Below, piece by piece: positions 11,027-22,927 of a stretch of DNA of 24,999 nucleotides. Numbering within the stretch: position 1 is the stretch's first letter; every line of letters starts with the position of its first letter. The notes under the pieces were generated by a model. That model saw only the letters and a program-made list of their open reading frames with translations, was not told the DNA's origin and searched no databases. Source of the DNA: a virus; IMG/VR virus record IMGVR_UViG_3300035199_000332, positions 1 to 24,999 of that record; one strand, given 5' to 3'. Position numbers and translations under genes: made by a program.

Positions 11027-14000
11027 ATGGGTAACGGTAGCCAGGGTGGTGATATCTTTGACGAGATCGGGGAGGATATCGGAGTTGGCGGGGCAGGGGA
11101 ACCTAGCCCCCCTCCTGGTATGGTTGGCTCCGACCCGGCTGTGGACCTGGAATCGGAAGATGATATTTTCGACACAATAGCGCGTGATCTCGGAGTCGGC
11201 ATACCTCAGAAGAGCACGGACCATCTGGCCAAGAAAGCTCCGTATTCCACGATGGATTACTTCAAGCAGCCACCGCCTTATAAGGTGATCGGAGCGCCAG
11301 ACCCCTACGGGACGGGCGTGAAGCATATGCTTACTCGGACAAGCGAGGAGACTGGTCAGCCCCTAAGCCCCGGATTCCCGACGCCAGAGATACCTGGTAT
11401 CCGGGAGGCCATTCCTGATTATGACGAAAAGATGAGACCGGTGCTATCGACTCCGCCCAGCCTTCGCGAGTCCATGGTTGCAGAGGGCATGACGAAGGAA
11501 GACTACATCATGATGGTCTTTATCGCTCGGGTCGGCAAGATGGATAAGGGTCCTGGAACTGCCTCCATGAGGGTTGATGAGGCCGGTCCAAATGCTGAGG
11601 ACAGGGAGGTTGGTGAGGCGCTGTGGGTTGAGCGCGGTGGGCTGTTGAGAGATCAACTTGACCTCGAGGCAGAGTCGCGTGGCTTGACCAAGGGCGACGT
11701 CGTCATGGGGCCGTATGGTGAGATGACTGCCCCCGAGGGCGCTCCTGAGCATGTTGTTAGCGCAATTCATTCGGTTGTTGCCACAATGTTTGCTCCCTAC
11801 CTCCCTCTGAGTGAGAGGACCCAGATTGCCATGCAGCAGGGTAAACGAGCGGAGGTGCCGGGTTGGAAGTTATGGCTTGGCATGGATGCGTACAGGACTG
11901 GGTGGGGTGGCACGCTTCCAGGTATAAGTCGGACGCTGAATCGCGAACTGCCTGCGGCTATACTGGATTACGCCACTGACTTAGTGAGCGGCGCGGACGC
12001 GATTGATAGGATTGCAGCGGAGGTTTCCCCGAGCAACCCTGGCCAGAAGGCCGCTCTGGCAGCAGGCAAGCTCCGCGAGGCCGCTAGTGATATTGATAAT
12101 ACCCCTTGGGCGGTGAAGGCCATTATGCCGATCATGTCAAAGTGGATTGCCAAAGGGGAGAAGGGTGACCCACTTGATGGCATAGGGGTCGCAGCCTTTG
12201 AACATTGGGGCAGTTCACTTGCTGCTGCTGACTGGGGGAAGATCAAAGAGGCCACTATCAGCGAGGTAGCCAACGCCCCTCTGCTTGTCGGTGACCTTGT
12301 TTACGCAGTTTACAAGGCTGGTGAGTACTGGGGTAGCACGGCTACGGTTGAGGAAAAGATATCCAAGACTGGGAATGTCCTGTCGCAATTAGGTCATCAT
12401 CTTGCTGATCGCTACGGTGAGCTAGTCAGCAGCCCAGGCACCTTGCTTGAGAAGGGTGCATTCAAAGCGTTCTTTGACATCGCCCTCCTGTATCAGATAC
12501 CCGCTGCTGCCGCTCGGCTGGTCGCTCGCGCTGCGATGCGGAGAGTGGCCGCCCAGGCCGACCTCATGGGCGTGGAGGTAATGGTTGAGGATGCGGCTGG
12601 TGTGAGTAAGCAGATTCTCGCTGCCAACGCGGAGAAACAGGCGGCAGTCGATGCGTCGATTATACACCTGGAGGAGATGGCCGCGAACAGCAAGGCATCC
12701 ATGAGCCAGTTGATGGAGATTGACCTGAAGCTCACCGAATGGAGAGTCGCTAAGTACACGAAGGGCCTAGAAAAGGCCCGAGGAATATCAAGACCCGGCG
12801 AGACTTCGATTGCTTTTGATCCGGCCAAGGGGGTGGGCAGCTTCGCTGAGATTGTCGATCAAGACATCATACGTTACATGAGGTCCGCGTATAAGGTCCA
12901 AGACCCAGCAAGCAGAGCCAAGATGCTGTCGATTGCTAGAGATGCTCAGGCCGTAAGGGATTTTACCCAGGTCCGCAAGATGGTAGCTCGCGTGGACGAT
13001 CTTGCTGAAAACCTAAGGCAGACCCGGGTAAGCATAGCCGAGGCAGCTTCTGAGAGTGAGAACCTGACCCGCTTGGCCAATGTCACAAAATCCGCCCCCA
13101 AGGAAATGGTCCCCAACCCCCTTCTACCTAAGAGCGCCTTGGAGGACCTGAAGGACTACAACTTCTATGTGGAGACGGCGGAGATCTTAGACGATATTGC
13201 GTACTTCCATCTTCCAGTCGCCGGACAAGCAGCGGCAGCGTGGCGTGGTGCTAGGGTTCTGATGGATGGACCGGGCCGGTTCATGAACCCTCTGTGGTGG
13301 AATAAGCGAGTTGACCGGGCCAGAATGAGGAAGGCGTTCCTGGACCCAGAAAACAGGATGCCCGTCGTGGAGCAAGCGGCAATGCGGCAAACGCAGGGTG
13401 ATGCCCAACTCTACCACCACCTCCTTGGCGAGGCCGTTGCCAAGCTCCACCCGTCCGAGTACCCGACAGTTCAGGCATTGATGAAGTTTGATGCTGACAG
13501 CCGGTTTGCACGCTATCTCGACTACCACCCGACAGCCGGTCGAGGGGAGAGTCTCTACACCCTGAAGAAAGGTTTTGAGATTACACCGGAGGCCCAGCGG
13601 ACGCTTGATATTGCCAATAGATACGAGGACTTGGCCAGGTTTACAATAAAGGCGCACCGGGCTGCTTTAGATGCAATGGCACTATCGGCACCTGAGAAGG
13701 CGTTTGCCTATTACTTCCCTGAGAAGTACGAGATATTCTGGAAGGACTACAAGACCCGAATCGCCTTTTACAAGGAGTGGGTTTCAACGCCAAACCTTGA
13801 GTCCCAGCTTACTGAGCTACTCGCGCTTCGCCAGAAGCTGGACGGGGAGATCATGGGCCGGTCGCTTATGAGAAACAACATGCGTAAGAAGTTTGGCCTG
13901 GAGGAGCGGAAAGCGGGTCAGCTATTCGATGATGGGAGTGGCGCGGGTCTCAGACTGGCTGACAGTTTTCCAGAGGAAATGGCTGCGCTATCAAAGCATT

Positions 14001-16156
14001 ACTACGACATGCAGATGCTAAAGTATTATGACATTATTGGCGGCGATGCGGCATCGCTTACACCGTTCACCAAGAGTAAGATGTTTGGCATCAGTGTCGA
14101 GGATGCTCTGGTCGCGCGTGAGGCTGCAAAGAAAAGTGGTAGCGCCGATGAGCTTTTACGTGCCGACAAGGTGGTTAGCAAGGCGAGAGCGGAGGCCAGA
14201 CGAGCTTCGACTGTGAAGCAGCCTGCGAGTATCGAGGATGCCATTGCCAATTTGCAGGGCGCAAAGACCGAGGTTGCGTTTGAGGAGGCCAAGGCAGCAC
14301 TTATAAACATGCGGAAGGAGTTGTCTGGTCAGGCCGAGAGCCGGGTCCCGATTTTCTACGCAGAGACCCTGCCTAAGAGACTTGCTAATAAGGCCGATGG
14401 CGGCTTTATAATGGACAACCAGGGCAACTTGGTTGCTATCGTCAACGAGAAGATACACGGCACGGGTGTCCATCGATACGGCAAGCTAAACGGGATGTTG
14501 GATATAGACATTGCGTATGAGTGGATGGGCCAGTACAAGCTTGCCAAGCAGTACGCAGGTCTTGGCGGGGTCTCTTTGCGATTCTTCAAGGCGGCTCACA
14601 CGATCATGTCAGTCGGTACGCACGCTACGAACTGGCTAGGTAACATCCTGGTCCTCGCTCCCGTGGCAGGGATAGCCTTGTGGAATCCTCTGAACTGGAA
14701 GTATTACAAGCAGGCCATCAAGGACTTTGGAACGTCGAGAGCGAGGTCCGTTCATTTCCAGAGGTGGGTTGGTAGTATGGGGCGCGGTCCCGGTATGGCC
14801 ATTAACAAGGCTGAGTTGCTGTCGGTTACAGAAAGGGGTGTCTCCATGATGTACCGGGGGGTACTTGGTCACGGCAAGCAAACATACCGCAATATGGCCG
14901 GGTTCATTAAAGGGGGCATGAACATGGATGCTCGGATGATGGGCAAGGCAGTTGGGCAGGAATTGGAACACTTGTTCTACCTGCCTGGTTTGACTTACCA
15001 GGTTGCCGATGACTTCCATCGATACGTAAAGTTCCTCAAGGAAATTGACAATGCTGGCGTGTTCAATGTCTCGAAGGCCAATATCCTGAAGCACAAGAAG
15101 ATTGACCTAGAGGCTGCGGCATCTGGCCGTCGCGCATTTGCTGACTACGAGAACCTGAACGGGGTCTTTCAGGCTATCCGAAGTAATTGGGCGGGTCAGG
15201 CCTTTGTTGCTTTCGACATTCGGACGGTTCCCGTGATGGCAGACTTTGCTGTTAAGAGCGCGGCAAAGCTACAGCTACTTTACGCTCTCCAGGAGTACCT
15301 TGTTCAGACCAACAGGAAGGACGCCGGGTATGACTCGGAGCTTCTAGACGGTAGGCTTGCTGGTATGCCCGAGTACAAAAAGCACCAAGTCTTCTTATCA
15401 GATCACTTCCCTGAAATTTTCACGGGCAAGTGGAAGTATCTTGCGATGGATACCCTGAAGTACATGCCCGCTGGGCGAAGGCTGCCTCTGCCTGGGGAGA
15501 CTGGGATGGAGTGGTTCCTTCGTAACGTTAGTGGTGACATGCCTGCATTCGGTATGATGGCGACTGCAGCGAACTTTGACCCGCATTTTCAGCGGTGGAT
15601 ATATGACACGTTTGACAGCCCTGAGCTAAAGGCAGAGAAGGTCCTCGACCACGCCATTCAGATGTGGACTCCGTCAATAACTTTCATTGGTCTTGGGTAT
15701 AGGGAGAAGCGCATTGAGAAAGCCAAGCGTGGCGTCAGGGTGCAGGGCATTCCCATGGACCTCACAAAGGAGCGCATTGGTGCTTATGGTGGGATGCTCG
15801 TTGATTTCTGGACACCCGCAAAGATAGAGATAATTGGTGGCGCTGGTATCCGCCGTGGATTCTTTCAGTATAAGAAACAGTACAAGTCCCTCTACAAGGC
15901 CTTTGTTTTGGACGGCAAGATGACCGAGGATGAGTACAGACGGGAGCTTCTGCACCTCAAGAAGGCTTTCCATAGGACCATGAGGGACCAGGGTCATTTG
16001 GATAAGTTGATTGGCTGGTTCGAGGAGAACGAGTCCGAGCTTCTAAATCAAGAGCGGGAGCTTATTGATATCCTCGAGCAGCAAGGATACGACAAGATGT
16101 CAGGCGTGGAGCAGCAGATTGCTGATGACATAGACAAGGAGTTCGATCAATTCTAA
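11027..16156 (+). CDS. Giant candidate ejection/internal core protein, 1709 residues
   Basis: This is the largest gene in the window. The N-terminus carries two copies of a short acidic motif (residues 9-21 and 46-58) in a Pro- and Gly-rich, probably flexible region. The rest is mostly alpha-helical with long coiled segments. Two hydrophobic stretches stand out: about residues 480-505 (FFDIALLYQIPAAAARLV) and about 1193-1225 (MSVGTHATNWLGNILVLAPV). The second, with its T-N-W-L-G-N core, resembles the membrane-proximal domains of large polyvalent phage proteins, tentatively LPD38-like. The C-terminus is charged and coiled. A single very large helical protein after two smaller ones, with no tape measure elsewhere, fits the podovirus ejectosome, which spans the cell envelope during DNA entry. 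No polymerase, lysozyme or protease motif was found. AAGG at 11017-11020 supports the start. Confidence 0.55.
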   Translation: MGNGSQGGDIFDEIGEDIGVGGAGEPSPPPGMVGSDPAVDLESEDDIFDTIARDLGVGIPQKSTDHLAKKAPYSTMDYFKQPPPYKVIGAPDPYGTGVKHMLTRTSEETGQPLSPGFPTPEIPGIREAIPDYDEKMRPVLSTPPSLRESMVAEGMTKEDYIMMVFIARVGKMDKGPGTASMRVDEAGPNAEDREVGEALWVERGGLLRDQLDLEAESRGLTKGDVVMGPYGEMTAPEGAPEHVVSAIHSVVATMFAPYLPLSERTQIAMQQGKRAEVPGWKLWLGMDAYRTGWGGTLPGISRTLNRELPAAILDYATDLVSGADAIDRIAAEVSPSNPGQKAALAAGKLREAASDIDNTPWAVKAIMPIMSKWIAKGEKGDPLDGIGVAAFEHWGSSLAAADWGKIKEATISEVANAPLLVGDLVYAVYKAGEYWGSTATVEEKISKTGNVLSQLGHHLADRYGELVSSPGTLLEKGAFKAFFDIALLYQIPAAAARLVARAAMRRVAAQADLMGVEVMVEDAAGVSKQILAANAEKQAAVDASIIHLEEMAANSKASMSQLMEIDLKLTEWRVAKYTKGLEKARGISRPGETSIAFDPAKGVGSFAEIVDQDIIRYMRSAYKVQDPASRAKMLSIARDAQAVRDFTQVRKMVARVDDLAENLRQTRVSIAEAASESENLTRLANVTKSAPKEMVPNPLLPKSALEDLKDYNFYVETAEILDDIAYFHLPVAGQAAAAWRGARVLMDGPGRFMNPLWWNKRVDRARMRKAFLDPENRMPVVEQAAMRQTQGDAQLYHHLLGEAVAKLHPSEYPTVQALMKFDADSRFARYLDYHPTAGRGESLYTLKKGFEITPEAQRTLDIANRYEDLARFTIKAHRAALDAMALSAPEKAFAYYFPEKYEIFWKDYKTRIAFYKEWVSTPNLESQLTELLALRQKLDGEIMGRSLMRNNMRKKFGLEERKAGQLFDDGSGAGLRLADSFPEEMAALSKHYYDMQMLKYYDIIGGDAASLTPFTKSKMFGISVEDALVAREAAKKSGSADELLRADKVVSKARAEARRASTVKQPASIEDAIANLQGAKTEVAFEEAKAALINMRKELSGQAESRVPIFYAETLPKRLANKADGGFIMDNQGNLVAIVNEKIHGTGVHRYGKLNGMLDIDIAYEWMGQYKLAKQYAGLGGVSLRFFKAAHTIMSVGTHATNWLGNILVLAPVAGIALWNPLNWKYYKQAIKDFGTSRARSVHFQRWVGSMGRGPGMAINKAELLSVTERGVSMMYRGVLGHGKQTYRNMAGFIKGGMNMDARMMGKAVGQELEHLFYLPGLTYQVADDFHRYVKFLKEIDNAGVFNVSKANILKHKKIDLEAAASGRRAFADYENLNGVFQAIRSNWAGQAFVAFDIRTVPVMADFAVKSAAKLQLLYALQEYLVQTNRKDAGYDSELLDGRLAGMPEYKKHQVFLSDHFPEIFTGKWKYLAMDTLKYMPAGRRLPLPGETGMEWFLRNVSGDMPAFGMMATAANFDPHFQRWIYDTFDSPELKAEKVLDHAIQMWTPSITFIGLGYREKRIEKAKRGVRVQGIPMDLTKERIGAYGGMLVDFWTPAKIEIIGGAGIRRGFFQYKKQYKSLYKAFVLDGKMTEDEYRRELLHLKKAFHRTMRDQGHLDKLIGWFEENESELLNQERELIDILEQQGYDKMSGVEQQIADDIDKEFDQF

Positions 16157-16692: not shown

Positions 16693-18363
16693 ATGCCAAC
16701 CAGAACTGGTATTAGAATTTCAGGTTTTCCTGTTGAAGTCACTGAAACCGCAGACGCACTGACCCTCGAGTCAGAAGGCAGTCGTGACCTTATTCTCGAC
16801 GCCGGTAGCGGCAAGGTTGGTATTGGAACAACAGATCCAGCAGTCGCATTGGATGTGATTGGCACTGCCTCCTTCGCGGGAGCAGAGGCGTCGCTATCCC
16901 AGGGTAACGTTCAGGTTGGCGTTGACTCAGGGGGTGACCCCGGTGGTGAACTGATGTTCCATACCGATGATTATGTTGGTCTCCGGTGCGCCGACTCCGG
17001 GGCTTTGTCTCTTGCGGTGAAGCCATCCGGCAACGTGGGGATCGGCACAACGGCACCGGCTGTAGCCTTAGATGTTATTGGCACCGGCTCCTTTGCGGGC
17101 GCGGCGACATCACAATCGCAGGGCAATGTTCAGGTTGGTGTTGATTCAGGCGGCGATCCGGGCGGCGAGTTGATGTTCCATACGGACGATTATGTCGGCC
17201 TCCGTTGTGCCGATTCAGGCGCACTACCGTTTGCAGTAAAACCATCCGGCAATGTTGGCATTGGTGATGTTGCTCCCGGCACCCAATTACAGGTGTCAGG
17301 CACCGCGCCATACGTCACACTGAAGAACAGCACGGCAGAAAACACAGCGGGTGGCTGTGAGTCTAAGATTATCTTCGAGGACCATGCAGACGTTGCGCTG
17401 GCACAGGTAGAGGGAAGTCACAGCGGAAGCTCGGATGACACCAAGGGTAAGATGATTCTATCTACCCACACAGGCTCTGCTCTTACTGCTGCCCTCACCA
17501 TCAACGATGAGCAAGAAGCAACCTTTGCTAGTGACGTTGTGGTTACCGGCGTCCTGGATGTTCTCGGTGGTTCGATTGCGTTTGGCAATTCAGAAGATGT
17601 GGAGATAGATTTTGACGCAACTGCTCACAATGTAGCGGGTAAGTCTATATCAATCTTAGCGGGGACGACGACTGCCGGGACAACAAGCGATATCGCTGGT
17701 GGCTCAGTTACTATCGCAGCAGGCCAAGGCAAGGGCACAGGCGCTGGTGGCAATATCGTATTCAAGACTGCCAATGCTGCTGGCAGCACTGGTTCAAGCC
17801 TGAACGCACTGGCTACCGCGCTAACGATTAGTGATGACCTATCCAGTACGTTTGCTGGTGATGTTGCGGTTGCTGGTGAAATTGAGGCTGGGTCTGGCTC
17901 TGGAGCGGGTGTCTTCCTGTCGAATGGTAACCAGGACGTAACCCTCAAGACAGGTAACTCATCGACCGGTAGCATTACGATTACAGATGGTGCCGATGAG
18001 GACATCACGATTGCTCCTAATGGTGATGGAATTACAGTGGTCTCAAGTGGTCTCACATGTAACGCACTGACTGTCAGCAGCGTTGACAAGACAGTCAACT
18101 ACGAATGCGATATTGACTTCCTTATCATTGCTTCGCGAAGTGTGACAATTAGCCTTCCAGAAGATGCTGACCGGGGCACCATCTATAAAATCAAGCGTGT
18201 AGATGATGGGACGAGCGATGGCACGATCACAGTCGGTAGGTCAGGCTCAGACACAATAGACGGCGCGACTTCGTATTCACTAGACGCCAACTACATGATG
18301 GTTGAAGTGATGAGTGATGGTTCAAATTGGTTCGTTACAGGTGCCTACGAGGTTCCTGAATAG
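16693..18363 (+). CDS. Tail fibre protein with tandem repeats
   Basis: This 556-residue protein has the signature of phage tail fibres: repeated G-N-V-G-I-G-T-T-x-P-x-x-A-L-D-V type modules. Residues 42-114 and 115-187 are two 73-residue tandem copies, and a partial third starts at 188 (VGIGDVAPG). A Gly- and Ala-rich stretch (GGSVTIAAGQGKGTGAGGNI) and long Thr- and Ser-rich strands follow. The last about 90 residues (from DKTVNYECDIDF to the end) form a terminal domain common in fibres, containing GTIYKIKRVDDGTSDG and SDGSNWFVTGAYE. The protein likely trimerises and binds the host surface with its C-terminus. TAGGAG precedes the ATG at 16693. No self-cleaving chaperone domain is present. The host receptor cannot be read from this sequence. 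Confidence 0.8.
   Translation: MPTRTGIRISGFPVEVTETADALTLESEGSRDLILDAGSGKVGIGTTDPAVALDVIGTASFAGAEASLSQGNVQVGVDSGGDPGGELMFHTDDYVGLRCADSGALSLAVKPSGNVGIGTTAPAVALDVIGTGSFAGAATSQSQGNVQVGVDSGGDPGGELMFHTDDYVGLRCADSGALPFAVKPSGNVGIGDVAPGTQLQVSGTAPYVTLKNSTAENTAGGCESKIIFEDHADVALAQVEGSHSGSSDDTKGKMILSTHTGSALTAALTINDEQEATFASDVVVTGVLDVLGGSIAFGNSEDVEIDFDATAHNVAGKSISILAGTTTAGTTSDIAGGSVTIAAGQGKGTGAGGNIVFKTANAAGSTGSSLNALATALTISDDLSSTFAGDVAVAGEIEAGSGSGAGVFLSNGNQDVTLKTGNSSTGSITITDGADEDITIAPNGDGITVVSSGLTCNALTVSSVDKTVNYECDIDFLIIASRSVTISLPEDADRGTIYKIKRVDDGTSDGTITVGRSGSDTIDGATSYSLDANYMMVEVMSDGSNWFVTGAYEVPE
16816..17253 (+). repeat. 219-base in-frame tandem repeat within the fibre gene
   Basis: Copy 1 is 16816-17034 and copy 2 is 17035-17253, directly adjacent and each 73 codons long. 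They share 66 of 73 residues (differences D/A, A/G, E/A, A/T, L/Q, S/P and L/F). By my count only 22 of 73 codons are identical, so 44 of the 66 conserved residues use a different codon. Confidence 0.9.
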
Positions 18364-18373
18364 GGAGGGGATA

Positions 18374-18490
18374 ATGTTTTTCAGACCAACAGTTAGACGA
18401 CGTAAGGCAACAGCCGAGGCGAAGCCCACTAAGAAGAAGGCTGCGCCTAAGAAGAAAGCCACTAAGAAGAAGGCTGCTAAGAAGAAATGA
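18374..18490 (+). CDS. 38-residue lysine-rich, histone-H1-tail-like peptide
   Basis: This short ORF has a very strong ribosome-binding site (GGGAGGGG at 18363-18370, 3 bases before the ATG), so it is likely translated. The product begins MFFRPTVRRRKATAEAK and ends in Lys-Lys-Lys blocks separated by Ala, Pro and Thr. It has 14 Lys, 4 Arg and one Glu, giving a net charge near +17. The pattern matches the C-terminal tails of histone H1 and of bacterial H1-like proteins, which bind and condense DNA. A 33-base unit is repeated in frame. The stop overlaps the amidase start (ATGA), so it is the first gene of the lysis cassette. DNA condensation, an accessory role in lysis or a purely translational coupling role are all possible. 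Confidence 0.65.
   Translation: MFFRPTVRRRKATAEAKPTKKKAAPKKKATKKKAAKKK
18426..18477 (+). repeat. Direct repeat encoding lysine-rich units
   Basis: The 19-base word CCACTAAGAAGAAGGCTGC occurs at 18426-18444 and again at 18459-18477, offset by exactly 33 bases (11 codons). It encodes the T-K-K-K-A-A blocks of the small basic peptide. This is coding-sequence repetition, not a regulatory array. Confidence 0.85.
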
Positions 18491-19173
18491 TTTGGTGGAA
18501 ATACGTCTTAGACTTCTTCGGTGGTGACAACCCGTCGTGGATAAAGAAGGGTGCGAGGTTGCGCTCTTACTCCAGACGGTACACCGAGATAGATGAGATT
18601 ATCATCCATGAATCAGTGACCAGCACCACAGCTAAAGCGGTAAAGGTTCTCAATGCCAGGAAGCTAGGCGTTCATTACTGTATAGATCGGGATGAGGCTG
18701 GGACGATTACATCTCATGTGCCAGCAGCGAAGGCTTGCTCTCATGCTGGCTCAGGCCACAACCGGCGCAGCATTGGCATTGAGGTGGTTTCACCATTTTA
18801 TGCTAAGTACGCCAAGGATGGGGATAAGACTCTGACGGGTGTATGGGTACACAGGAAGGAGTATCTCTTACCATACGAATCCCAGATGAAGAGCCTGTGG
18901 AAACTTGTCCTGTGGTTGGTGATGCGGCACGATGTGCGGCTTGAGTTCCCTGGTATCCCTGATGGCGTAATGCGGTGGGGCAAGATAGCTGACCATCACA
19001 AACCCGGCATCATGGCGCACCACAGATTCAATCACGGTGACGGAACCTTTGCTGAATGTTATATCTACCTGCGAACTCAGGCACTTTCACATGAAGATGC
19101 CTGGGCAAAAACGATTGTGGCTGCATCTGCTGGAAAGCGGAGCACGCCGCTGCTTGACGAGGAGTTAGCATGA
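18487..19173 (+). CDS. Endolysin: zinc N-acetylmuramoyl-L-alanine amidase (amidase_2 type)
   Basis: This 228-residue protein cuts the bond between muramic acid and L-alanine in peptidoglycan at the end of infection. The fold is recognisable from IDEIIIHESVTST (His41, probable first zinc ligand), GVHYCIDRDEAGTI, CSHAGSGHNRRSIGIEVV (residues 84-101) and the late MAHHRFNHGDGTFAEC block. In that block His178 or His179 and Cys191 or a nearby acid would complete the zinc site, by analogy with the T7 lysozyme His-His-Cys set. There is no secretory signal and no separate wall-binding domain, so a holin should be needed for release. The ATG at 18487 overlaps the stop of the lysine-rich peptide. The next gene overlaps its own stop (ATGA), which makes this a coupled lysis operon. 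Confidence 0.85.
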   Translation: MIWWKYVLDFFGGDNPSWIKKGARLRSYSRRYTEIDEIIIHESVTSTTAKAVKVLNARKLGVHYCIDRDEAGTITSHVPAAKACSHAGSGHNRRSIGIEVVSPFYAKYAKDGDKTLTGVWVHRKEYLLPYESQMKSLWKLVLWLVMRHDVRLEFPGIPDGVMRWGKIADHHKPGIMAHHRFNHGDGTFAECYIYLRTQALSHEDAWAKTIVAASAGKRSTPLLDEELA

Positions 19174-19451
19174 AGCCAGCCGATTGGATAAAGATAGCAG
19201 GTATGTTGATAGCGGCCTGCGCTGCCATCCTTACATACGTTGCGAGCATGGACCACACCGTCCAAGTCAACACGTCTGACATCGAGCGAGTTGAAGAGGT
19301 CAACGAGAAACAAGAGGTTGCAGTCGAGAAGCTTGAGACTAAGACAGCCGCGATAGATACGAAGCTCGTGCAGATACAGACACAACAATCATTCAACCAG
19401 CGTATCCTTGAGAAGATGGATCGCAAAATGGATAGGGTTCTAAAACGATGA
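19170..19451 (+). CDS. One-TM coiled-coil membrane protein in the lysis cassette (spanin or holin candidate)
   Basis: This 93-residue protein has one N-terminal membrane helix (about residues 7-27, IKIAGMLIAACAAILTYVA). A charged coiled-coil tail of about 60 residues rich in Glu, Lys and Gln follows. That topology, a short N-terminal cytoplasmic end and a periplasmic coiled coil, is typical of inner-membrane spanins. It is also seen in some antiholins and in XhlA-like proteins with the reverse order. GAGGAG precedes the ATG, which overlaps the amidase stop by ATGA, and the next gene starts inside its own stop in the same way. The spanin role is inferred from topology and position; no sequence family was recognised. 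Confidence 0.55.
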   Translation: MKPADWIKIAGMLIAACAAILTYVASMDHTVQVNTSDIERVEEVNEKQEVAVEKLETKTAAIDTKLVQIQTQQSFNQRILEKMDRKMDRVLKR

Positions 19452-19804
19452 AGAAAGAATTACATGAGTCACTAACCGTAAAGTCAGCCGTCGCCATCTG
19501 CGTGTTGGTCTTGGCCAAAGTATTACTACCGGTGTTTACCAATTATGAAGTACCTGATTCCATCTTTGAAAGTGTATGCGCAGTGCTTGGTGTTTCTGTC
19601 ACAGTTGGTATGCGCCGCGCCTTGCCTGTTCTCATTGTGGGTTTTCTTAGTTTCAGTACGATTCAATGCGGACCCAGTGTCTGCCAGAAAGCAACCATCG
19701 AGATAACCAAACACCCGGAGCTTCCCTCTCCTGCTGCTACGATCACTGTGAAGTGTGATGGCAAGGATAAGGCCGTTCTTCACGGCAAGGAATTGGTGAA
19801 GTAA
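19448..19804 (+). CDS. Multi-TM holin-like protein with cysteine-rich C-terminal tail
   Basis: This 118-residue protein has hydrophobic segments at about 13-30 (SAVAICVLVLAKVLLPVF), 38-54 (IFESVCAVLGVSVTV) and 58-74 (ALPVLIVGFLSFSTIQC). A soluble tail with Cys74, Cys79 and Cys103 and a Pro-rich stretch (HPELPSP) follows. Three membrane spans next to an amidase gene suit a holin, which permeabilises the inner membrane to release the endolysin. The third hydrophobic segment, preceded by Met55-Arg-Arg and ending in a Cys, also looks like a lipoprotein-type signal, so the ORF might carry a nested outer-membrane spanin. The residues before Cys74 (T-I-Q) do not match a standard lipobox. The start overlaps the previous stop by ATGA. 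Confidence 0.6.
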   Translation: MKKELHESLTVKSAVAICVLVLAKVLLPVFTNYEVPDSIFESVCAVLGVSVTVGMRRALPVLIVGFLSFSTIQCGPSVCQKATIEITKHPELPSPAATITVKCDGKDKAVLHGKELVK

Positions 19805-20038
19805 GTGAGTCCCGATGTAGCTAAGCAAGTCGTTGGTCTATTGATTGACGCGCTCCAGGCTGAGGCTAAGAGCCACCTCCCTTCCTATGTTCAGGAGTCA
19901 TGGCTTGATGCGATGAGTAACCTCTTGGAGTCAGGGCTGTACCATGTATGGCAGGCATTGCTTGAGAACATTGACACGGTAAAGCTAGAGGCTGAGATAG
20001 TAGAAATCATAGACCATAGGGAGGACAGTGATGGCTAA
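19805..20038 (+). CDS. Small helical phage protein of unknown function
   Basis: This 77-residue protein starts with GTG immediately after the previous stop (TAAGTG). AAGGA lies about 12 bases upstream and is only moderately well placed. The sequence is amphipathic and acidic, with helices such as VVGLLIDALQAEAKSHLPSY and LYHVWQALLENIDTVKLEAE, and it ends in an acidic tail (EIIDHREDSDG). There is no membrane helix or catalytic motif. It lies between the lysis genes and two small basic proteins. It may be a co-translated accessory; function is unknown. An internal ATG at 19913 is an alternative start, but it would lose much of the amphipathic region. Confidence 0.55.
   Translation: MSPDVAKQVVGLLIDALQAEAKSHLPSYVQESWLDAMSNLLESGLYHVWQALLENIDTVKLEAEIVEIIDHREDSDG
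20019..20025 (+). promoter_or_regulatory. Ribosome-binding site deciding the start at 20031
   Basis: GGGAGGA lies 5 bases before the ATG at 20031. For the GTG at 20028, one codon earlier, the spacing would be only 2 bases, so the ATG is the better start. Confidence 0.7.
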
Positions 20039-20363
20039 ACCACCGTTCCCCAGTGAGCACCCTCTTGTCAAAAATAAAGACGGGTCGTATAGTAATGTGC
20101 TTACGGCAACATTCGCGCTTGGCGACCCAGGCAACCTTAGGCATTATGTGATACCGACCATGGTTCGGGGCAAGAAGCTATCCGGCAAGGATGCCGTAGC
20201 CGTGGCCAAGAGGCATGGCCTGAGCAAGTACCCGTCGTTTGCCACCGCAGATGAAGCGCTTGCTGCATCAAAGAGGTTGCACGACAAGCAGCCACCACCC
20301 TCCCCGCGAAGGGAGGCAGCGAAGAATATGCTCAGGCGAAAGCGAAGAGGTCTTGATGACTAA
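20031..20363 (+). CDS. Small phage protein of unknown function with FPSEHPLVKN-type motif
   Basis: This 110-residue protein (from the ATG at 20031) contains KPPFPSEHPLVKNKDGSYSN, the segment HYVIPTMVRGKKLSGKDAVAV and the ending KYPSFATADEALAASKRLH. Such proteins recur in unrelated phages, often beside lysis or internal virion genes; from memory this looks like a widespread uncharacterised phage family. The Y-x-I-P-T-M core followed by a basic helix and a final K-Y-P-x-F helix suggests a small globular domain. The C-terminal 25 residues are strongly basic (PRREAAKNMLRRKRRGLDD) and could bind nucleic acid. It shares its ribosome-binding leader with the next gene. Confidence 0.6.
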   Translation: MAKPPFPSEHPLVKNKDGSYSNVLTATFALGDPGNLRHYVIPTMVRGKKLSGKDAVAVAKRHGLSKYPSFATADEALAASKRLHDKQPPPSPRREAAKNMLRRKRRGLDD

Positions 20364-20369
20364 GGAGGA
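20362..20369 (+). promoter_or_regulatory. Strong Shine-Dalgarno site for the gene at 20375
   Basis: AAGGAGGA lies 5 bases before the ATG at 20375. The 10 bases GGAGGACAGT that precede the start region recur in front of the gene at 20031. Confidence 0.75.
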
Positions 20370-20374
20370 CAGTA

Positions 20375-20581
20375 ATGCAGCTACGTAAAGGCGGGTCGGA
20401 TGCAGTCATCCGCGACAACATCAAGACCCTCATAAAGCAGCACCGCCTAAAGGGCAAGAAGCTGAGCCGAAAGGCAGCCGTTACCATGGCCATGAACAAG
20501 GCAGGCAAGACGAAGCTGAGTAAAAAAGATGTACGAAAAGAGGCAGCGCTAAGCCTGAGAAAGAAACTAAAGATGGCGTAA
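20375..20581 (+). CDS. Small basic phage protein of unknown function
   Basis: This 68-residue, very basic protein resembles a common phage orphan pattern. An N-terminal G-x-S-x-x-V-I-x-x-N-I-x-x-L-I segment (GGSDAVIRDNIKTLIKQHRL) leads into a lysine-rich S-x-K-x-A-V-x-M-A-M-x-K-A-G-K block. These short proteins appear in many tailed phages, but no role is established to my knowledge. The charge suggests nucleic acid or virion-interior binding. A strong ribosome-binding site (AAGGAGGA) precedes the ATG. It is the last gene of the block before the primase, from which it is separated by 48 non-coding bases. Confidence 0.6.
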   Translation: MQLRKGGSDAVIRDNIKTLIKQHRLKGKKLSRKAAVTMAMNKAGKTKLSKKDVRKEAALSLRKKLKMA

Positions 20582-20592
20582 ACACTTTCAGC

Positions 20593-20621
20593 TTGACAGC
20601 CAGATTCCAGGCGTGTCATTT
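20593..20621 (+). promoter_or_regulatory. Candidate promoter for the primase gene
   Basis: A consensus -35 hexamer TTGACA lies at 20593-20598. Seventeen bases later TCATTT (20616-20621) could serve as a weak -10. The expected transcription start is then within a few bases of the ATG at 20630. The -35 match is exact but the -10 match is poor, so the promoter is only a candidate. Confidence 0.4.
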
Positions 20622-20629
20622 TCTCATCC

Positions 20630-22927
20630 ATGAATATCGTAAGAGTGCTAACTGAGGTAGGCTACCCTGCCATCTCCAGGGTTGTCGGCACTGACCCTGT
20701 CCGAAACCTTCCGTGCCCTGTCGTACCCCATAGAAACCAGACATCCTCAACGGGTCCCGCCATGGTCTACCCGCCTGGTTGTGATGGCCCTGATGATCCA
20801 GGGACACTGGTCTGCATGAATTGCGGTGAGACGTGGGGAACCAATAGGCTTGCGGACGTCTTGTCTGTGACGAGCGAGGTCATTGATGGGAACGAACGCT
20901 ACGTCCCACCCCGCGTGACTTCCGTGCAGCGGTCACGACCGAGACTACCTGCAGAGCCTATTGATGTGCAGTCCACATGGATAAAGGCTCAAGCAACCAC
21001 ACCTCAATCGATGAAGTGCTTTCAATATTTCAAGCGACGTTGGCGAGATGACACCCTTGCTGATGTTGCGATGCAGTTCGTTGGGTGGACCAGCGGTCTC
21101 AAGCAGGGGTACTGGACACGGCACAAGGAGCACTTGCTCTTTGTCCCTCTTTACGATGTTCATGGTTCAGTAGTCAGCGGAGTCAGGCGTTTCGTTGGGC
21201 ATGGCAAGGCCAAGCTCAAGAGTCTCCGACTCCCAAACGAGGCCGTTGGTCTTCCTTCCGGTACCTCGGTGTGGTTCGGTGACCCACCGCCGGTAGCGGC
21301 AAACCTTTGCAAGTCCAAGGTGCTCTATGTGGCGGAGGGTGAGATTGATACGCTACTCCTGATGTGCCTCCGAGAGGAGGGTTACATTGAGGGGGGTATC
21401 CTAGGCTCACCGGGCGGCGCTGCTGGTAGCCCTGGCTGGTGGGATAAGACGGCTGAGCTAATCACAGACCCTCCTGCCTCGGTGGTGTTGGTCATGGATG
21501 CCGACACGGCTGGTGACCAGTACTGGCAGCGCTCTGCCAACGCCTTCCCAAACGCACAGCGAGTGATACTACCTGACCACACTGACCTTACTGACTGTGT
21601 TCACAGGTATGGCCAGCCAGAGGCAGTGACCTTACTGAACTCTGCAGCACGAAGTCACTTCCAGTTCTACCAGTTGGACAGTGGTCGCTTTGCTTACATG
21701 GCTGGCGGTGTTTGGTATGACGCTACGGGCCGGTCAGCGTTGACCTCTAGGCTAAGAGGTGCTGGCTACGACCACGAGGAAGCTCAGGGCATGGCAGCGG
21801 CCCTTCCCTCTGCACGTGACATCGTCTTCAACCCGAACTCTACCCAGGCAGTTGTCATTGAGCGTGGCAACACCTGGCTCAACCAATTCAGGGGCCTGTC
21901 GTTGCAAGCTGCTGAAGGTAACTGCGACCTGTACACCTGGTTGCTGCATTGGATATGCGGCGAGGACGCGTCATCGTTTGAGTACTGTATGGATTGGATC
22001 GCCAAGCCACTCCAGACCCTTTACAAGGGCAAGGGTGCTCACCGAAACAAGACGGCGCTCGTTTATCACGGCGCTCAGGGTTCCGGTAAGGGGTTCTTCT
22101 GGGGGTCCGATGGAATCATGCGTGCCATCTACGGTCGAATGATGACCGAGATAATGCAGGGGCAGATGGAAGATAAGTTTGACCCCGCTCCACTTACCCG
22201 CTCCCTCCTGGTCACAGCCAACGAGGTGGCCTGTTCGGGCTACCGAGATGCCAAGACCCTGAACAAGCTCAAGGCCTGGATAACGGAACCCTACGTCATG
22301 ATACGCCGGATGCAGAAGGCGGGTGACGAGCATCCCATCTGGTTCAACATGGTCTTGATGTCGAACGACGCCATGCCTATCCGGCTAGAGCCAGGTGACC
22401 GGCGGTACAACATCTTCAGACAGGACAAGAAGCTTGACCCATCAATCATATCTAACTTGGTGACCGAGCGGAACAGGGGCTGGCCAGGTGCCAGACACTT
22501 CCTCCACCACCTACTGGAGCGCGATATACAACGTGACCTGGCTGCTCCGTTTATCAACAGCGATAGGCAGACCCTGCTCGACGCATCCAAGCCGAGCCAG
22601 GTACAGTTCGCTGAACTCGTGGCCGACCTCGGCCTTTGTGCTGTGATGCGTGACTGGGAGGCCGCCCTTGGTGACAAGAGACAGGGTCCATTCACGGACG
22701 CATCCGTTGGCTTCATGGCCGGTGAGCACATCCATGAGGTCTACTCGTTCTGGTGTAAGCAGGTTGGCATCCACTACCCAGTACGCTGGCAGCACCTCAA
22801 GGAAGCCCTTCTCGCTGCAGTTCCAGGCGCAAGGGTTAGTTCGGGTCATCGACTGGGTAACACGCGCAAGAGGGGCCTCCTAGGGCTTCCTATGGGCGGT
22901 GAACAGAACTTAGTTGCTATAGGTTAG
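20630..22927 (+). CDS. Primase-helicase: zinc-finger/TOPRIM primase with SF3-type helicase domain
   Basis: This 765-residue replication protein starts with a probable zinc-binding primase module (Cys29, His34, Cys62, Cys65). A TOPRIM domain follows, with Glu236 in YVAEGEIDTLLL and Asp290-x-Asp292 in VVLVMDADTAGD. The C-terminal half is a helicase of the SF3/D5-like kind: Walker A GAQGSGKG at 481-488, Walker B-like LLVTANEV at 526-533, motif C MSND near 580 and an arginine-rich GDRRYNIF that may supply the arginine finger. Such proteins make RNA primers and unwind the template at the fork. The start ATG has no ribosome-binding site, and an in-frame stop lies at 20594-20596 with no better start between. 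The gene is transcribed with the lysis block but belongs functionally with the minus-strand module it meets at its 3' end. Confidence 0.85.
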   Translation: MNIVRVLTEVGYPAISRVVGTDPVRNLPCPVVPHRNQTSSTGPAMVYPPGCDGPDDPGTLVCMNCGETWGTNRLADVLSVTSEVIDGNERYVPPRVTSVQRSRPRLPAEPIDVQSTWIKAQATTPQSMKCFQYFKRRWRDDTLADVAMQFVGWTSGLKQGYWTRHKEHLLFVPLYDVHGSVVSGVRRFVGHGKAKLKSLRLPNEAVGLPSGTSVWFGDPPPVAANLCKSKVLYVAEGEIDTLLLMCLREEGYIEGGILGSPGGAAGSPGWWDKTAELITDPPASVVLVMDADTAGDQYWQRSANAFPNAQRVILPDHTDLTDCVHRYGQPEAVTLLNSAARSHFQFYQLDSGRFAYMAGGVWYDATGRSALTSRLRGAGYDHEEAQGMAAALPSARDIVFNPNSTQAVVIERGNTWLNQFRGLSLQAAEGNCDLYTWLLHWICGEDASSFEYCMDWIAKPLQTLYKGKGAHRNKTALVYHGAQGSGKGFFWGSDGIMRAIYGRMMTEIMQGQMEDKFDPAPLTRSLLVTANEVACSGYRDAKTLNKLKAWITEPYVMIRRMQKAGDEHPIWFNMVLMSNDAMPIRLEPGDRRYNIFRQDKKLDPSIISNLVTERNRGWPGARHFLHHLLERDIQRDLAAPFINSDRQTLLDASKPSQVQFAELVADLGLCAVMRDWEAALGDKRQGPFTDASVGFMAGEHIHEVYSFWCKQVGIHYPVRWQHLKEALLAAVPGARVSSGHRLGNTRKRGLLGLPMGGEQNLVAIG

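Follow-up and report, generated by a model that had tools for sequence, protein, structure and literature searches.

A lysine-rich micro-gene of the lysis operon overlaps the endolysin start in an uncultured phage group

Translational coupling was found experimentally in 13 of 14 overlapping gene pairs tested (PMC6728339), and a pair which shares with these a same-strand ATGA or GTGA overlap, a strong upstream and a weak downstream Shine-Dalgarno (SD) sequence lies within the stretch of DNA analysed here, 24,999 bases of an IMG/VR virus record (the window). It differs from the described pairs in its upstream partner, which is a polycation of 32-44 aa in the window and its relatives, and in that we infer coupling from the anatomy. 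As a disordered basic stretch rich in Lys, Ala and Pro, the encoded peptide also resembles bacterial proteins whose tails are Lys-rich or H1-like, such as AlgP (PMC9239181) and the Chlamydia proteins HctA and HctB (PMC13317200); unlike these, it is the product of a phage micro-gene, is only 38 aa long, is encoded in a lysis operon and has no detectable sequence relationship to them. A further likeness is to small phage proteins with Lys-rich C-termini in IMG/VR, in which KKKxxKKK and the stop codon overlap the next start, but most of those listed have long non-basic N-terminal parts, unlike the micro-ORF peptide. The literature searched, which was partial in coverage, contained no description of such a peptide.

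The micro-ORF (Table 1) translates to MFFRPTVRRRKATAEAKPTKKKAAPKKKATKKKAAKKK followed by a stop codon, and this translation bears out the 38 residues with 14 Lys and 4 Arg ahead of the amidase, as well as the ATGA overlap with the endolysin start, from which the initial annotation had set out. With a single Glu, the net charge is +17, and by composition the peptide ends in a basic tail rich in Lys, Ala and Pro (KKKAAPKKKATKKKAAKKK). The SD sequence follows directly on the TAG (18361-18363) of the upstream tail gene, and the strong ribosome-binding site claimed for it has the lowest duplex energy with the 16S anti-SD among 18 gene starts checked in the window, on a scale where 5% of all window ATGs attain about -7.9 kcal/mol; the endolysin start reaches just -4.4 kcal/mol. 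An upstream GTG would extend the open frame to 58 aa (18314-18490), and the ATG at 18374 is favoured as start by the strong SD and by all relatives. The window holds a single ATG-started ORF of at least 30 aa with a K+R fraction of at least 0.36, and none of 500 dinucleotide-preserving shuffles attained the fraction of 0.47 in such an ORF (maximum 0.42); a chance ORF is ruled out by these shuffles together with conservation. Counts of promoters and terminators in 17900-20700 were not above those in shuffles, and none was found at the micro-ORF. On the opposite strand, an ORF of 46 aa (18322-18462, -) is strongly hydrophobic (MAFFLGAAFFLVGFASAV...) and mirrors the Lys and Ala codons; it is probably a meaningless by-product, though it could mislead membrane-protein searches.

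Table 1. Coordinates of the micro-ORF, its signals and the neighbouring genes in the window
Feature	Position	Strand	Evidence
Tail/fibre-like protein, 556 aa; stop abuts the micro-ORF SD	16693..18363	+	phrog_18345 tail fiber protein, E=1.2e-4
SD sequence GGAGGGG of the micro-ORF	18364..18370	+	Sequence; duplex energy -12.4 kcal/mol
Lys-rich micro-ORF, 38 aa; N-terminal MFF.PTVRRR motif and K-rich tail	18374..18490	+	Translation, homologues, purifying selection
ATGA shared by the micro-ORF stop and the endolysin start	18487..18490	+	TGA 18488-18490, ATG 18487-18489
Amidase_2 endolysin, 228 aa	18487..19173	+	PF01510, E=1.7e-15; PHROG endolysin/amidase matches; 91% identity to L001/L011
Rz-like (inner-membrane spanin-like) protein, 93 aa	19170..19451	+	phrog_739 Rz-like spanin, E=1.5e-6
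Probable holin-like membrane protein, 118 aa; conserved CGPxxC	19448..19804	+	Role inferred from hydrophobic stretches and position

The proposal that the micro-ORF opens the lysis cassette was upheld, as it is a conserved gene and the first in the lysis operon. The junctions after the micro-ORF/endolysin pair are ATGA (endolysin and Rz-like gene), ATGA (Rz-like and holin-like gene) and 0 nt, so that an overlap of -4 is a habit of the operon and nothing special to the micro-ORF and the endolysin. The holin-like protein had no family match, has counterparts in the lysis regions of relatives, and its alignment was too diverse to serve as a search query. In two of these counterparts (L014:9102-9500 and L015:1282-1686) a lipobox-like stretch (FLAGC and ISGC, respectively) was observed after the hydrophobic part, so that the protein may combine holin with outer-membrane spanin there. 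Between 18300 and 19457 the window and its close relative L011 form a near-identical island (74-96% per 100 columns), which covers the 3' end of the tail gene, the micro-ORF, the amidase and the Rz-like gene; as its flanks are diverged, being mostly less than 60% identical, the lysis module appears to have been recently exchanged.

A search with the amidase gave one close relative (L011, listed in Table 1), the primase gave eleven further contigs, and an alignment of GH25 endolysins added more viral contigs and one bacterial MAG (L037). All relatives are metagenomic, and the Rhodospirillaceae label of L037 stems from binning. Each contig was counted once (L001=L003=L011=L016, L018=L006=L036, L021=L004=L034, L020=L008=L078, L024=L012, L025=L009, L029=L013, L035=L010 and L019=L162). 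In type 1, the slot between tail and endolysin gene is occupied by a peptide of 32-44 aa with MF(S/F), an R-rich head and a Lys-rich tail, found in 11 genomes (the window, L011, L004, L006, L013, L024, L025, L032, L033, L035 and L037). Conservation of the frame in relatives, which the initial annotation had named as a check, was thus found in ten other contigs; start, charge and overlap are retained as well, the net charge staying between +16 and +19 despite varying length and repeat pattern. Behind type 1, the endolysin is an Amidase_2 enzyme in two of the 11 genomes (the window and L011) and a GH25 enzyme in nine, which in L006 was scanned (PF01183, E=4e-35, with a PG_binding_1 domain) and in the eight others was assigned, again with PG_binding_1, by alignment or tblastn. 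When all IMG/VR contigs were scanned for the MFSI head, eight contained it, with every motif directly 5' of an endolysin.

Type 2 (L008 and L019) carries the same Lys-rich tail behind a 45-residue N-terminal part (MTEVEVAAK...RLYLKP), a domain which is unrelated to type 1 and for which a low-confidence structure model gave no match. Type 3 (L022, L026 and L028/L031) consists of MKHHSF... proteins with a C-terminus resembling SAP/Rho_N domains (PF07498 and others). In L022 this C-terminus is joined to a Lys-rich linker; in L026 and L028/L031 the protein has no Lys run, and another ORF follows. The window peptide differs in having no such helix-loop-helix domain (Pfam), for which the sole match was that of the L022 protein to Rho_N (PF07498, E=0.012, below the Pfam cut-off). 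The L022 protein also gave PHROG matches down to 1.5e-7 (phrog_3281, named endonuclease VII), and its SAP/Rho_N-like part was modelled as a helix-loop-helix (pLDDT 84-87), for which Foldseek matches to the Rho N-terminus and T4 EndoVII were individually non-significant (E-values >1). L014 has an ORF of 73 aa which is not Lys-rich and retains a GTGA overlap, and L015 has nothing Lys-rich; as the slot differs or is without a Lys run in these two and in L026 and L028/L031, its function is dispensable or replaceable. In part of the group, an acidic ORF of 57-63 aa (MAQVKDIEQLA...NILVEE; L022:4616-4789, L025:4-177, L029:22-195) was observed directly 5' of the micro-ORF or of the SAP-type gene; its L025 copy had no match in Pfam or PHROGs. 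Among annotated cultured phages, no relative was found by the peptide, the amidase, the type 2 or the SAP-type protein, and the capsid, primase and GH25 relatives were only remote.

Codon comparison of type 1 members revealed mostly synonymous substitutions in the micro-ORF, with pN/pS of 0.07-0.28 in closer pairs, values which are not independent of each other and are affected by poorly aligning Lys-rich tails and by pS near saturation in many pairs. L024 and L035 differ by 18.5 synonymous and 4.5 non-synonymous changes (pN/pS 0.07), third codon positions accounting for 18 of the 23, and further values are 0.12 (L024/L025), 0.12 (L032/L033), 0.17 (L004/L006) and 0.18 (L013/L032); alignment gaps comprise whole codons. 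The pN of the peptide is lower than that of the endolysin in six of ten pairs compared (L013/L032, L004/L006, L024/L035, L024/L025, L032/L033 and L013/L033), for example 0.085 versus 0.344 in L013/L032. Judged by these codon data, the micro-ORF is a genuine protein-coding gene, with the peptide as such under selection.

In all 13 Lys-tailed genomes SD pairing is strong for the micro-ORF (-6.8 to -12.4) and weak for the endolysin (+0.4 to -4.8), and the overlap is constant at 4 nt, either ATGA or GTGA; an AAG in place of AAA as last Lys codon turns the endolysin start into GTG. Such an anatomy of termination and re-initiation makes it likely that the endolysin is translated by coupling to the micro-ORF, and the coupling suggested in the initial annotation is the best reading of the SD contrast and the constant overlap. 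In an RNA structure prediction, the endolysin start region is mostly unpaired and an occluding hairpin was accordingly rejected, so that coupling via melting of a structure is not favoured and some independent initiation would be possible.

From its conservation, codon substitutions and operon anatomy, the micro-ORF is a genuine gene and stands first in the lysis operon; it is probably coupled to the endolysin and encodes a polycation that most likely binds nucleic acid, and to this reading as a whole we assign a probability of roughly 0.55. Ribosomes would load on its strong SD and, after the 38-aa peptide, re-initiate at the overlapping endolysin ATG, where SD pairing is slight, so that coupling would account for most of the endolysin made. 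Selection acts on the peptide itself, a disordered polycation with a nearly fixed net charge and a short MF(S/F)..RxRR head, which would most likely bind nucleic acid without sequence preference late in infection, candidate targets being DNA in or around the virion, or RNA. Binding of nucleic acid is suggested by the charge and by the R-rich head, as well as by the type 3 protein that takes the slot in L022, and condensation of DNA by the peptide is plausible.

The SD contrast and the constant overlap would also be expected if the micro-ORF were a leader that just delivers ribosomes to the endolysin start, with the peptide as a by-product and the Lys codons as an A/G-rich stretch (AAGAAGAAATG) before the start that favours re-initiation or sets its timing. 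In agreement with this, the 40 nt 5' of the endolysin are 70-80% purine in all 13 genomes, and phage ORFs commonly have a Lys-rich end that overlaps the following start: a scan of IMG/VR for the DNA pattern of KKKxxKKK-TGA gave at least 119 contigs, and among 117 places examined, 81 are followed by an overlapping ORF of 60 aa or more. Nevertheless, we regard a mere leader as unlikely, as it accounts neither for purifying selection at the protein level nor for an R-rich head conserved far from the overlap. Moreover, synonymous divergence of micro-ORF and endolysin is of similar size in most pairs, which argues against a general RNA constraint; the exception is the window and L011 (pS 0.08 in the micro-ORF, 0.44 in the endolysin), a pair that sits in the recently shared island. 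As Lys codons are twofold (AAA/AAG), selection for purine-rich RNA could supply part of the synonymous signal; that it supplies the whole is made less likely by the R-rich head and the Ala, Pro and Thr codons. The next junctions of the operon use the -4 overlap without Lys tails, as does L014 its GTGA, and AAAAAGAAATG of several members shows almost no SD pairing (-1.5 to +0.4).

An extension of the nucleic-acid-binding reading, which we consider doubtful, would have the polycation of fixed charge, produced by coupling in stoichiometric amounts as endolysin synthesis begins, act on nucleic acid at lysis and the slot after the tail-tip gene serve as an exchange site for small nucleic-acid-binding genes. 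The peptide might then, for example, compact leftover host or phage DNA or load late virions, and the exchanged contents would be a Lys-rich peptide, a domain with Lys tail, and a Lys linker with SAP-like domain.

Phage T4 has Lys-rich internal proteins, a precedent for a peptide that is packaged or tail-attached and acts as a protamine-like counter-ion of DNA or as an assembly or ejection factor, and both the fixed net charge and the late-gene position just after the tail/fibre protein (in relatives where that gene is visible) would suit such a role. It appears improbable, as the limits of the island shared by the window and L011 indicate that the micro-gene travels with the endolysin and the Rz-like gene and not with the tail gene, and as a charge of +17 per copy would call for many hundreds of copies before an appreciable share of a ~40 kb genome was neutralised. 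The disturbance of membranes that had been proposed, here read as the action of a cationic peptide assisting lysis as a holin helper, would be in line with the extreme charge and the position in the lysis operon, but was not borne out: no hydrophobic or amphipathic segment can be read from the sequence beyond the first few residues (MFSI/MFF) and the cassette already has separate Rz-like and probable holin genes, which renders this role very unlikely. Hardly credible is a -1 frameshift at the Lys codons leading to an endolysin form with a Lys-rich N-terminal extension that binds cell wall or membrane, since, although the micro-ORF is rich in A-AAG runs at its end and the endolysin is read in the -1 frame with respect to it, an in-frame X-XXY-YYZ heptamer is absent in 12 of 13 genomes and the sole one (L033, codon 21) is unshared.

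The likeness to histone H1 tails stated in the initial annotation holds for the Lys/Ala/Pro composition and not for kinship; H1 homology was rejected, as no sequence match in Pfam, NCBIfam or PDB accompanies the composition. The globular winged-helix domain (Pfam Linker_histone) had no match in the peptide, which at 38 aa is too short to accommodate it. The same three databases gave no similarity to H1 or bacterial H1-like proteins, and as low-complexity peptides are hard to search, the missing H1 match is weak negative evidence. PHROGs likewise had no match for the window peptide or for its homologues in L004 and L024, and that in L006 reached merely E=0.1. Among the KKKxxKKK matches listed, the next genes form about 45 groups, which include head proteases and a head-tail adaptor and, as lysins, M15 peptidase, Phage_lysozyme (GH24-type) and GH25; given this variety, the idea that Lys tails are specific to lysis was rejected, and no enrichment is claimed. 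In two unrelated phages, KKKxxKKK ORFs with an ATGA or GTGA overlap were observed before a lysin, namely an M15 peptidase endolysin (L064:267-605, -) and a phage lysozyme (L122:1292-1693, +). As phages widely have Lys-rich C-termini that overlap the following gene, the general kind is known, and the micro-gene is no histone but a new, well-supported family among small basic phage proteins and coupled pairs.

The lysis operon of an uncultured phage group thereby gains a micro-gene family that is unannotated and clearly under selection, and genes of this type, despite their strong SD sequences, are easily missed by phage ORF cut-offs and standard gene finders. Should DNA or RNA be the target of the peptide, lysis cassettes would contribute more than holin, endolysin and spanin; should the micro-ORF serve for ribosome delivery only, it would be a natural leader ORF setting the endolysin dose. 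Short basic proteins are also frequent in the group's genomes in the stretch between lysis cassette and primase, where the window has two further small Lys-rich ORFs, 20028-20363 and 20375-20581, the latter with a match to phrog_2423 (E=7e-6) and an SD of -12.0; MPKVxGKKYPYT-type peptides are encoded by the relatives L006 (7591-7731) and L013 (2522-2662). In addition, a single ORF of 1709 aa spans positions 11027-16156 of the window and may encode a large virion protein that is internal or ejected.
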